33,088 nucleotides of DNA from Candidatus Cloacimonadota bacterium (lineage in GTDB: Bacteria; Cloacimonadota; Cloacimonadia; Cloacimonadales; Cloacimonadaceae): assembly GCA_029565595.1 (NCBI GenBank), contig JAKQNV010000037.1, forward strand, positions 1 to 33,088, written 5' to 3'. A program made the position numbers and the translations under genes. Shown piece after piece: positions 6,356 through 29,724 of the stretch; positions within the stretch are counted from its first letter, which is position 1, and every line of letters begins with the position of its first letter. The notes under the pieces are model-generated. The model saw only the letters and a program-made list of their open reading frames with translations. It searched no databases and had not been told where the DNA came from.

Positions 6356-6458
6356 GTTATATTCCTTACTGGCTAAGGGTTTATCCCCATTTGCCCGCGT
6401 TATGGAATCTTGGATCCCGGAGTGACATTTTTCCCATTTTTTCGCCATCCTCCCGCCT

Positions 6459-6529
6459 ATCAATACGGGATCAATACGGGATCAATACGGATGAAACCCG
6501 TATTGATCCCGTATTGATCCCGTATTGAT
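6459..6529. repeat. 71-nt element E1: three 11-nt ATCAATACGGG units, 5-nt centre, three inverted CCCGTATTGAT units
   Basis: Direct reading: 32-bp perfect inverted repeat with a 7-nt loop (ATGAAAC). Confidence 0.95.
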
Positions 6530-6619
6530 CGCCAGGAAGGTCAAAGAAAAGAGAAAATGTTTTATAGGTTGGGCAGCCGTGGGAAGCAAGGGCCGGGGCT
6601 GGCCCGATATCGGAAAGGC

Positions 6620-15534: not shown

Positions 15535-15581
15535 ACTGAAATAGCTGTCGCGACCGCGTGTCGGGCAAGCTGGATAATCAG

Positions 15582-15615
15582 GCCCCGGAAGAGATTCCGG
15601 GGCTTTTCTTTTTTC
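15582..15615 (+). terminator. Rho-independent terminator after the C25 gene
   Basis: GCCCCGGAA-GAGA-TTCCGGGGC then TTTTCTTTTTTC. Confidence 0.88.
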
Positions 15616-15741
15616 GGTATTGGGGCGGAATAGCCTTTCTTTTTTTTGTTTGTTTTTTGGTATTCCCACTGTCCGGAATCCTCCAGCAGAGTGGGGAAAT
15701 CCCTGAAATCACCACCCTTTCGCCCTAGTATGCAGGCGTTT

Positions 15742-15812
15742 ATCAAGTCATTATCAAGCCTTAATCAAGTCTTAATAATTAACGCTTGATTAAGGCTTGA
15801 CTAAGAAGTGAT
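15742..15812. repeat. 71-nt element E3: ATCAAGTCATT/ATCAAGCCTTA/ATCAAGTCTTA, 5-nt centre, inverted units
   Basis: Direct reading: inner 16-bp perfect inverted repeat TCAAGCCTTAATCAAG/CTTGATTAAGGCTTGA; three 11-nt units per arm, outermost degenerate. Confidence 0.8.
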
Positions 15813-15828
15813 CAAGGCTTGGACGCAA

Positions 15829-15975
15829 GGGTGCTTGGGCACCAGCAACGGAATGGCTTGTGTTGCAAACGGAAAAGGAATAAGATTGTCATTGCCCCAA
15901 GATCTTCCTGCGGAACAATTCGGTGTGCAGGAAGGTCAGTCGAAATTGCCATTCCAGAGCACCGTAAAAGCACCC
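15829..15975. other. Long-range imperfect inverted repeat / structured intergenic region
   Basis: GGGTGCTT-13-GGAATGGC (15829-15857) inverted as GCCATTCC-12-AAGCACCC (15948-15975); nested GATCTTCCTGC/GCAGGAAGGTC (15901-15911/15927-15937). Confidence 0.5.
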
Positions 15976-16001: not shown

Positions 16002-16030
16002 TTGACATTTTGGAAATTCACAAAATAAAG
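16002..16030 (+). promoter_or_regulatory. Candidate promoter for the 16064-22423 operon
   Basis: TTGACA, 17-nt spacer, ATAAAG, about 34 nt before the ATG. Confidence 0.4.
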
Positions 16031-16063
16031 TGCAGGAAACGAAATTGGCGGTAATGTCACAGC

Positions 16064-26617: not shown

Positions 26618-26715
26618 TTCTCTCGAACCCAACCTTCTGAACTATATTTTCCACCATCTTCATAACAGATTTTATATCAGTAAAATGCTTTATCTTTCCT
26701 AACTCCCCCCTCTCT

Positions 26716-26786
26716 ATCATTACGGGATCAATACGGGATCAATACGGATAAAACCCGTAATGATCCCGTATTGATCCCGTAATGAT
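26716..26786. repeat. 71-nt element E2, second copy of the ATCAATACGGG-unit family
   Basis: ATCATTACGGG ATCAATACGGG ATCAATACGG-ATAAAAC-CCGTAATGAT CCCGTATTGAT CCCGTAATGAT; 32-bp stem with one mismatch, loop ATAAAAC. Confidence 0.95.
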
Positions 26787-26917
26787 CATAAGGGCGGAGA
26801 AGGCAAATTAATATAAGTCATGCGTTTGGCAGATGGCTACGGAATATCATTTCACACACGGCATTTTGTCAGTGGATCGATTTACACAGCCTGCCCCAAG
26901 AACCACGCATTTTTTAC

Positions 26918-26923
26918 TTGACA
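26918..26923 (+). promoter_or_regulatory. Candidate -35 box TTGACA upstream of gatE
   Basis: ACTTGACAAAA 36 nt before ATG 26954; the track used this TTG as a start codon. Confidence 0.35.
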
Positions 26924-26953
26924 AAATCCGCTTCCTATGGGGATTTGGCTTTA

Positions 26954-29146
26954 ATGACAGTGCATACAAAGCTGCGGATGGAAAATCCCCATCTGCGGAA
27001 TTGGTTGCTCAGCCGGGAAAACGTTGGCTGGGTCAGCCTTTCGGACGCCGTGCAAGCGACCTGGCGAACGCTTGGGTTCAAGTGCGGCCTGGAAATCCAT
27101 CAGCAGCTCAAAACGGATAAAAAACTCTTTTGCCGCTGCGCCGCGGGCATCTATCACGATTTTGACGATTATGACGCCGAAGTCGTGCGCCACATGCGGC
27201 CGACGCTTTCCGAACTTGGCGAGTACGACGGCACCGCGTTGATGGAATTCAAAACGCGAAAAAAGATCGTCTACCGCATCAAAAACGACAGCGCCTGCAC
27301 CTATGAAGTGGACGACACCCCGCCGTTTCCGCTCAATCGCGAGGCGCTGGACCAGGCCATGCGGATCGCGCTTCTTCTGAAAATGAAGATCGTCGGCGAG
27401 CTGCATATCACGCGCAAACAGTACTTGGACGGCAGCATCCCCACGGGTTTTCAGAGGACCACGATCCTGGGCATCGAGGGCGCATTTCCCATCTCCACCA
27501 AAACAATCCGAGTCATCCAGTTTTCCGTCGAGGAAGACAGCTGCCGCGAGGTTTGCGATATCCGACATACGCGCGTTTATTACGCCGACCGTTTGGGCAT
27601 GCCGCTCATCGAAACCGTCACCTATCCGGACATGCTGACCCCCTGGGAGGCGGCCGAAGCGGCGCAAAACATTCGCTTTATCGCCCGCAGTTCTGGATTG
27701 GTGAGGGTTGGCATAGGCGCCGCGCGCGAGGACGTCAACGTTTCCATCGATGGCGGCACGCGGATCGAGATCAAGGGCGTGGCACACATCGCCTGGATCC
27801 CCAAACTCACGCACAACGAGGCTTTCCGGCAAAAGTCGCTGCTGCTGATCCGGGATGAATTGGCAGCGCGGAAAATCGACCCCGCTTCCTGGAAAATCCG
27901 CTATACATTGCTGGATCCTGCCGACTGGCGCCACATTCCGCTCCTGAAAAAAGCCTCTGCGGAAGGCTGGAAACTTGTTGCGGTCAATCTGCCCGGATTC
28001 TCTGGGATCCTGAGTTTCTTCAACCAACCTGGGCGTAGCTTTGCCGATGAAATTTCCGACCGCCTGAAAGTCATTCCCTGCCTGGAAAAACCGAATATGC
28101 TCCACTCCGAACAAATTGATTTTTCCCTGCTGGAGCCGAGCAAGGAACGAGATTCGGTTTCTGCAAATGACACCACACTATCAAATGATGTCATTCCGGC
28201 GCCGGGGTCCTCGACAGACAGCTTGCTGGCTGGTGGGGTGGATCAGACTGGAATCCAGGTCTTTTCTGGATCCCGGAACAAGTCCGGGATGACAGCTCCG
28301 GAATTTGCTGACAGCGTTTGGGACAAGGTCCGCAAAGAACTCAAAGCGACTTCTGAAGACTCGCAGATCGTGTTCTGGGCACCCGATGAGGACATAAAAA
28401 CCGCCCTTGAAACGATCTCCGAACGCTGCCTGCTGGCGTTTAAGGGCGTTCCCAACGAAACCAGAAAATCCCTGCCGGATGGCATCACCCTGTTTGAACG
28501 TGTTTTGCCGGGTGCGGACCGCATGTATCCGGATACCGATTCGGCGCCGATCCCGATCGCTGAAGCCCAGATCGAGGCCGCGCGGGTGGAACTGCCCCTC
28601 GGATTGGACCAAAGGCTGGAGCAGCTGGCGCAGTGGGGCATCCCGTCCGATGCCTACACTTATCTGCTGCGTAATAATTTAATGCCCACGGTGGAAGATC
28701 TTTCCAGCAAATATCAGATCGCTCCGAAGCGTCTGGCGCTGTATTTCGCGCATCTGCTCAAAAACCTGCAGGGCAAGGATCCGCTGCCCTTCGATCCGCA
28801 GCGCGTCGAGGACCTGCTCATCTATATCCGCAAAAAGAAGCTGGCTCTGGACATCCTGCCCGAGATGCTGAAAGTGCTTTTTGCCAATCCCAATATGCAG
28901 TTCTCCTCCGTGCTGGCCGTTCTGAACTACAAAGAGATCACGGTCCGCGAAATACTGGCGGAGATCCCGCTTCTGCAACAAATGTGGGCGCGGGTGAAAA
29001 CCAACGGCCTGAAGCGGCCTGACGCCCTCAACACCTGGATGATGGGGCGCCTCCGTTATCTTGCCTTGGGCAATATGCCGCTGGCTGAACTGCGGCAGGC
29101 TGTGGAAAAAGAACTGTCCACGAATTATACGAATTCCACTAATTAA
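26954..29146 (+). CDS. gatE: Glu-tRNA(Gln) amidotransferase subunit E (archaeal-type GatE)
   Basis: 'FKCGLEIHQQLKTDKKLFCRCA', 'RPTLSELGEYDGTALMEF', 'DDTPPFPLNREALDQA', 'DGSIPTGFQRTTILG', 'DRLGMPLIETVTYPDM', 'REDVNVSIDGGTRIEIKGV', 'LPGADRMYPDTDSAPIPI'; C-terminal tail-domain helices. Start uncertain. Confidence 0.92.
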   Translation: MTVHTKLRMENPHLRNWLLSRENVGWVSLSDAVQATWRTLGFKCGLEIHQQLKTDKKLFCRCAAGIYHDFDDYDAEVVRHMRPTLSELGEYDGTALMEFKTRKKIVYRIKNDSACTYEVDDTPPFPLNREALDQAMRIALLLKMKIVGELHITRKQYLDGSIPTGFQRTTILGIEGAFPISTKTIRVIQFSVEEDSCREVCDIRHTRVYYADRLGMPLIETVTYPDMLTPWEAAEAAQNIRFIARSSGLVRVGIGAAREDVNVSIDGGTRIEIKGVAHIAWIPKLTHNEAFRQKSLLLIRDELAARKIDPASWKIRYTLLDPADWRHIPLLKKASAEGWKLVAVNLPGFSGILSFFNQPGRSFADEISDRLKVIPCLEKPNMLHSEQIDFSLLEPSKERDSVSANDTTLSNDVIPAPGSSTDSLLAGGVDQTGIQVFSGSRNKSGMTAPEFADSVWDKVRKELKATSEDSQIVFWAPDEDIKTALETISERCLLAFKGVPNETRKSLPDGITLFERVLPGADRMYPDTDSAPIPIAEAQIEAARVELPLGLDQRLEQLAQWGIPSDAYTYLLRNNLMPTVEDLSSKYQIAPKRLALYFAHLLKNLQGKDPLPFDPQRVEDLLIYIRKKKLALDILPEMLKVLFANPNMQFSSVLAVLNYKEITVREILAEIPLLQQMWARVKTNGLKRPDALNTWMMGRLRYLALGNMPLAELRQAVEKELSTNYTNSTN
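28189..28294. repeat. Palindromic repeat element inserted in frame within gatE
   Basis: Termini TGTCATTCCGG...CCGGGATGACA (10/11 inverted match), nested GGAATCCAG/CTGGATCC; reads in frame as VIPAPGSSTDSLLAGGVDQTGIQVFSGSRNKSGMT. Confidence 0.7.
29115..29144 (-). repeat. AATTCGTG-type repeat, inverted copy at the gatE 3' end
   Basis: Reverse complement AATTAGTGGAATTCGTATAATTCGTGGACA closely matches 29567-29597. Confidence 0.8.
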
Positions 29147-29175: not shown

Positions 29176-29559
29176 ATGGATTCAAATCAAGAGCTGCTGT
29201 ACAAAGACGAGTGCTACAAGATCGTGGGTGCCTGCATGGAAGTGCACAGCAATTTGGGATGTGGTTTTCTAGAACCTGTTTATCAAGAAGCGCTAGCCCT
29301 TGAACTTCAGCAGAGAGGGATTCCTTTTGAGAAAGAGAAAGAATTTGAGATCAAATACAAGGGATTTGTTATACCGAAGACCTATAAAGTGGACTTCCTC
29401 TGCTACGAACACATAATAGTTGAATTGAAAGCACTCAGCCAACTAACCAGCGATCATATAGCTCAGGTCCTCAACTACCTGAAAGCCTCCCAATTGAAAC
29501 TAGGTCTTCTAGTAAACTTTGGTATCAGCAGCCTTCAGCACGAACGTATAATCTTGTAA
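29176..29559 (+). CDS. GxxExxY family protein (PD-(D/E)XK-like)
   Basis: 'GCGFLEPVYQEALALEL', 'YKVDFLCYEHIIVELKAL', 'QVLNYLKASQLKLGLLVNFG'. Track start is 29158. Confidence 0.9.
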   Translation: MDSNQELLYKDECYKIVGACMEVHSNLGCGFLEPVYQEALALELQQRGIPFEKEKEFEIKYKGFVIPKTYKVDFLCYEHIIVELKALSQLTSDHIAQVLNYLKASQLKLGLLVNFGISSLQHERIIL

Positions 29560-29566
29560 ACCTTTA

Positions 29567-29617
29567 AATTCGTGTGAATTCGTGTAATTCGTGGACAGCC
29601 TAACCCATGCTTAACCT
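29567..29617 (+). repeat. AATTCGTG-type repeat copy A, extending into a duplicate of the gatD start region
   Basis: Ungapped match to 29674-29724, about 44/51 identical by eye. Confidence 0.85.
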
Positions 29618-29673
29618 GCGTAACGTAGCATGCCAATACCACTGATTGTGCTTTAGATCTCTTAAATCCTATT

Positions 29674-29724
29674 AATTCGTGTGAATTCGTGAAATTAGTG
29701 GACAGATCAAACCATGCTTGACCT
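29674..29724 (+). repeat. AATTCGTG-type repeat copy B, including the gatD start codon
   Basis: AATTCGTGTGAATTCGTGAAATTAGTGGACAGATCAAACCATGCTTGACCT. Confidence 0.85.

Follow-up and report, generated by a model that had tools for sequence, protein, structure and literature searches.

The segment E3 of a Candidatus Cloacimonadota genome (G000) is probably a copy of a dispersed element, miniature, palindromic and non-coding, that resembles REPINs or MITEs in behaviour, spreads as selfish DNA and is recognized by a protein as a hairpin. The element is a modular hairpin built of 11-nt units, with many near-identical intergenic copies per genome; its sites turn over between species, its arms evolve by compensatory change and it is restricted to one bacterial family. 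Unusually, the modular geometry stays fixed while the sequence changes and pairing is preserved, all of this within a single family. In this study, E3 was analyzed together with two related elements, E1 and E2, that lie in the same window, i.e. the whole stretch of 33,088 nt that forms contig 65 of the 2.06 Mb draft genome. Other G numbers denote the further genomes that were compared. The features discussed are listed below.

6459 to 6529, unstranded: core of E1, family A (unit ATCAATACGGG), located 27 nt ahead of tyrS; about 6448 to 6540 when the end motif is included
15580 to 15612, forward strand: intrinsic terminator belonging to the upstream gene and distinct from E3
15720 to 15834, unstranded: full E3 element, about 115 nt, comprising the core with a degenerate fourth unit and a terminal motif on each side, delimited by flank conservation, end consensus and fold
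15742 to 15812, unstranded: core of E3, inverted array of 3x11 + 5 + 3x11 nt, family B (unit ATCAAGYCTTA)
16002 to 16031, forward strand: promoter-like site (TTGACA type) of the DUF7033 gene that follows E3, at a distance of 190 nt from E3
26716 to 26786, unstranded: core of E2, family A, between an RNase R-like gene and gatB; with the end motif, about 26705 to 26797

The initial annotation described positions 15742 to 15812 as a 71-nt array of three 11-nt units mirrored across a 5-nt gap, and the sequence agrees with this to the base. The 5′ arm consists of the units ATCAAGTCATT, ATCAAGCCTTA and ATCAAGTCTTA and is followed by the loop ataat and by the inverted units TAACGCTTGAT, TAAGGCTTGAC and TAAGAAGTGAT of the 3′ arm. 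The two arms are complementary at 26 of 33 positions in E3, at 32 in E1 and at 31 in E2. On a score for 11-periodic inverted arrays that is independent of the unit sequence (agreement with the majority base of each of the 11 columns over the 66 letters of six units), E3 reached 57, E1 65 and E2 62, and the top score among 60 Markov windows of 33 kb, matched in length and dinucleotide content, was 46. Matches of at least 50 were found neither in a 636-kb Markov control nor in 100 kb of the Escherichia coli genome, which contradicts the notion that such arrays are equally frequent in control sequence. Folded as single-stranded DNA, E3 gave a z-score of −8.0.

Copies of the element were surveyed in 636 kb of the genome, picked in part for carrying matches, and fell into two families: family A, to which E1 and E2 belong, with the unit ATCAATACGGG and the loop TGAAA, and family B, to which E3 belongs, with the unit ATCAAGYCTTA and the loop ATWAT. 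Scaling of the unit counts gave a genome-wide estimate of about 42 copies of A and about 19 of B (about 60 in total). All 36 complete copies that were scored (22 A and 14 B) have three units per arm and a loop of 5 nt; E3, which is additional to these, has the same 3-5-3 arrangement plus one extra overlapping unit match, and two further copies are short of one unit, owing to a contig end or to decay. The earlier description of E3 as differing from E1 and E2 in its unit is thus correct, but E3 is one of the roughly 19 family-B copies and not a lone variant. Within genomes, family A copies are 95–97% identical in the host genus and 94% identical in G003, and family B copies are 91% identical in G000; those of G009 are decayed, with 79% identity. 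Many copies lie near contig ends, and the element probably also breaks the assemblies of these metagenome genomes.

The 71-nt core is not the whole element, since paired and conserved flanks extend it to about 15720–15834. Conservation of these flanks was seen among 16 family-B copies. On each side of the E3 core there is a degenerate fourth unit (GCAGGCGTTT and CAAGGCTTGG) followed by a terminal motif (CGCCCTAG and GCAAGGGTG), and the 115 nt fold into a single hairpin on either strand. This arrangement holds for family B in general, the copies of which carry the degenerate fourth unit CGAAGGCGTTA and then an A-like end motif, CCGCCCTTGC, and total about 115 nt, while family A copies end directly in an 11-nt motif (GGCYCTYNC / CCGCYCTTGCG) and total about 93 nt. 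A TCCGCYCTTGC-like terminal inverted motif is therefore common to both families. Across the bacterial family the end consensus is tTtCttcCTtgcTTgaagGcgTTA and pairing is raised 15–17 nt outside the core; the sharing of the terminal motif outside the host genus is weakly supported.

Pairing between the arms was examined in a gap-free alignment of 20 elements, nearly all from different genomes and mostly representing a single species each. The pan-family form is that of the family to which E3 belongs, ATCnnnnnTTN ATCnnnnCTTA ATCAAGCGTTA ATWAT followed by the mirror image. In the middle unit one arm reads AAGC, TAGC, CCCC, TACC, ATCC or CCCT, and in nearly all of the 20 elements the other arm carries the matching complement. 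Double (compensatory) changes occur at 18 of the 33 stem pairs, and at 24 of 33 when families A and B are taken together. The covariation score was 0.293, against 0.116 for shuffled and at most 0.073 for slid alignments; kinship of the sequences inflates such counts, yet the slid controls retain this kinship and score far lower. The middle unit is nearly always paired, and mispairing is frequent at some positions of the outer and inner units, the mismatches concentrating at unit position 5 in family A and at positions 5–8 in family B. The outer mismatch of family B occurs more often than independent arms would predict. The unit junctions and the central asymmetry are conserved. Template-switch repair could be an alternative means by which the complementarity of the arms is kept.

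The class extends well beyond this genome. When periods from 7 to 16 were scanned in 2.04 Mb of sequence from this genome and its relatives, period 11 gave 79 matches at a threshold of at least 78% and the nine other periods together gave 5, so that period 11 alone is enriched. Unit sequences vary widely among genomes (ATCACTTGTCT, ACTTCCCGCTG, CTCTCTTAGCT, AGCTTATGTCC, ATAACCTTAGT and CCACCCTTGTC), and variants other than ATCAATACGGG are abundant both in this genome and in other genera; the earlier proposal that the class is structural and its unit sequence variable is supported by this, and the prospect that no further variants would turn up is dismissed. The E3 type of unit is in fact widespread across the family, and it is the E1/E2 type that is seen mainly in the host genus. 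A covariance model built on A plus B had matches in 38 of the 50 host-family genomes, covering ten of ten genera and often with at least 40–46 matches per genome, and in none of 75 genomes from elsewhere in the phylum; the outgroup families were examined with this model only, and because it favours units related to A and B, the absence outside the family refers to this superfamily and not to every possible unit. The viral contigs of IMG/VR contained no exact match to the pattern of either family, and a literature search yielded no description of such elements in Cloacimonadota.

Several further arrays were observed among the sequences compared. A third unit family, ACTTCCCGC, has the 11-nt inverted architecture at L080:5162, L087:12538 and L145:1085 (G003 and G002). 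The 11-nt families CTCTCTTAGCT and AGCTTATGTCC include some arrays that are tandem instead of inverted (L121, L124, L127, L129 and L132 in G009, L133 in G011, and L208 and L210), and in an element at L266:11966 (G016) each arm apparently exceeds three units of 11 nt. A G003-type copy of family A lies on a 1.2-kb contig labelled as Omnitrophota (L174:426–496), by misbinning of the contig or by horizontal transfer. Within the window, a different dispersed repeat occupies positions 29114–29136, 29558–29617 and 29665–29724, its AATTCGTG(TG) motifs occurring in both direct and inverted orientation. In addition, the GatB-like ORF at 26918–29146 spreads the 277-position GatB_N profile over about 500 residues, a profile match that suggests a large insertion in the GatB_N domain.

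A simple ORF rule was used to call genes, and on this basis 46 of the 52 elements lie between genes. Co-directional, divergent and convergent gaps hold 22, 9 and 10 elements, compared with 20.7, 11.8 and 8.5 expected, and the 52 elements showed no bias towards promoters or 3′ ends or with respect to gene orientation. Occupancy of individual sites was followed by synteny in up to 12 relatives, the absence calls being rechecked with a looser hairpin scan. E1 was not found at the orthologous gap in any other species in this comparison. E2 has a counterpart only in the closest relative, G005, where the orthologous gap contains a diverged A-like hairpin (L205:12071–12143, unit nTCAnTGCGCT) below the threshold of the unit scan; this gap had been considered as a clean empty site for E2 and was rejected as such. 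Family-B counterparts of E3 are present at the same locus in G001 and G004, and none was found there in G002, G003 or G007. Among G000, G001 and G004 the element is 86–96% identical and the flanks much less so. The likeness of copies within genomes, their decay and the patchy occupancy of loci fit dispersal followed by decay; selection or repeated insertion is hinted at most strongly by the E3 locus.

The same-locus copies of E3 with diverged flanks could reflect selection for a host function, and they are the starting point of an explanation in which E3 is a host-functional site, either six phased 11-bp sites for an abundant DNA-binding protein in nucleoid organization or regulation, or a regulatory or processing RNA hairpin. 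The fixed number and spacing of units and the conservation of the unit junctions and central asymmetry also favour such a site. Against it stand the lack of any promoter, 3′-end or orientation preference among the surveyed elements, the differing site content of congeners and the free compensatory change in the units, which would be unexpected for purely double-stranded recognition; for a host RNA, Rfam gave no match above the gathering score and only sub-threshold, miRNA-like hairpins. On balance a host-functional site is unlikely. A bidirectional transcription terminator or mRNA-stability hairpin, suggested by the strength of the hairpin on both strands, is highly improbable: E3 does not show the GC stem and following T tract at a gene end that characterize intrinsic terminators, the T tract being absent, and convergent gaps are not enriched (10 observed, 8.5 expected). 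On present evidence E3 is neither a terminator nor a 5′ UTR, because the upstream gene already ends in a canonical terminator ahead of E3, and the promoter-like site of the DUF7033 gene, with a TTGACA block conserved in G001 and G004, follows 190 nt beyond E3. Nothing beyond the shortness of the units speaks for chance or an artefact of simple tandem-repeat slippage, the probability of which is practically negligible; it is refuted by the simulation (maximum of 46, compared with 57 for E3), by the fixed 3-5-3 architecture without copy-number variation and by the sharp boundary of the family (38 of 50 genomes inside, 0 of 75 outside).

Another rival to the preferred reading is that the element is a genuine member of the REP family, a REPIN mobilized by a RAYT (Y1 HUH) transposase. 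In G000 only one Y1_Tnp gene was found, and a family-B element lies 88 nt downstream of it; similar adjacency occurs in G007 (31 nt), in G010 (260 nt) and at a long-type pair in G003 and G010. At least 20 copies are present in 15 of 25 genomes with a Y1 homologue, compared with 5 of 25 without, and the absence of a target duplication is as expected of HUH elements. Pfam and protein searches across the genus and family nevertheless led to the demotion of RAYT as the mobilizer. The link is weak because the short-type Y1 genes adjoin short hairpin repeats of their own (GAGTCCCnnnGGGACGGCATTTT and GAGTCTCGGAGAGACG), even where no 11-nt element is nearby, because an 11-nt hairpin is missing beside the gene at most long-type RAYT loci, and because G004, G009 and G035 carry 14–18 elements each with no Y1_Tnp match found. 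The end consensus moreover contains no GTAG or CGTC tag. We therefore regard mobilization by RAYT as a poor prospect, with a probability close to that of the host-functional site. The short hairpins, GAGTCTCGGAGAGACG in tandem, occur beside the short-type Y1 genes of several genomes (L233:1061–1331 on C47 of G000, L234, L235, L238 and L240), and this combination is likely to be a true REP/RAYT pair in this phylum.

Under the preferred reading of a dispersed selfish element, copies would spread within a genome and the object recognized would be the folded strand, as a single-stranded DNA hairpin or a cruciform. A putative protein, for which a nuclease or transposase acting in trans is the likeliest candidate, would make one contact per helical turn, at the conserved unit junction (TTAATC in family B), the 11-nt step corresponding to one turn of the bound hairpin, and would also contact the terminal, CCTTGC-like motif. 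If the bases in the middle of the unit need only to be paired, unit sequences could drift by lineage while geometry and pairing are kept. Effects on neighbouring genes would probably be incidental. Against mobility, neither an excision nor an insertion event was directly observed. No enriched direct repeat marking a target-site duplication was found at the element borders, no transposase was tied to the element and no clear candidate for a parent transposon with matching ends was present in the 636 kb of the genome, in which the 28 distant pairs of end motifs were mostly one-mismatch matches. It is conceivable, and we propose it only tentatively, that these elements form a new class whose defining property is geometry (modules of 11 nt, mostly three to an arm, a loop of about 5 nt and common ends) in one Cloacimonadota family, in which the modules turn over in concert with pairing kept and a putative dedicated protein reads the hairpin once per helical turn. 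The repeat class was found through structure and not through similarity, and occurs with changing sequence in all ten sampled genera of the family. It makes testable how a hairpin element holds a fixed modular geometry and what moves it, and it is a warning that similarity-based repeat annotation misses such elements.

Among known systems, REPIN/REP sequences (BIMEs) are extragenic, palindromic and non-coding, number tens to hundreds of copies, form hairpins in single-stranded DNA or RNA and are near-identical within a genome, with a unit that differs between species (PMC3116915, PMC3733652, PMC6006769). In the definition of a REP, one end of the hairpin carries a GTAG or CGTC tag (PMC3733652). 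The 11-nt element resembles them in being an extragenic (46 of 52), high-copy (about 60) palindrome that is non-coding, hairpin-forming and near-identical within the genome, and in having units that vary from species to species. It differs in that each arm consists of at least three tandem 11-nt units instead of a single REP of about 20–25 nt, in that no GTAG or CGTC tag is present, in that RAYT genes are not consistently flanked and in that the short-type RAYT carries other short hairpins. Flanking of RAYT genes in the manner of a REPtron occurs at some loci and not at most. The 11-nt element is probably not a REP, since the tag is unseen and RAYT genes are inconsistently flanked.

With MITEs and composite repeats such as ERIC/RU-1 (127 bp), Correia and NEMIS it shares a length of about 93–115 nt, an intergenic and dispersed distribution and end motifs common to several families. 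Unlike these, neither a target duplication nor a parent IS was found for it, and it is a single palindrome composed throughout of 11-nt modules. Arrays of 11-bp iterons, such as parC of the ParR partition systems, have an 11-bp repeat phased with the helix. The present element has a repeat of matching length, which may be similarly phased, and differs from parC in its inverted 3+3 arrangement, its roughly 60 chromosomal copies and the base-pair covariation between its arms.
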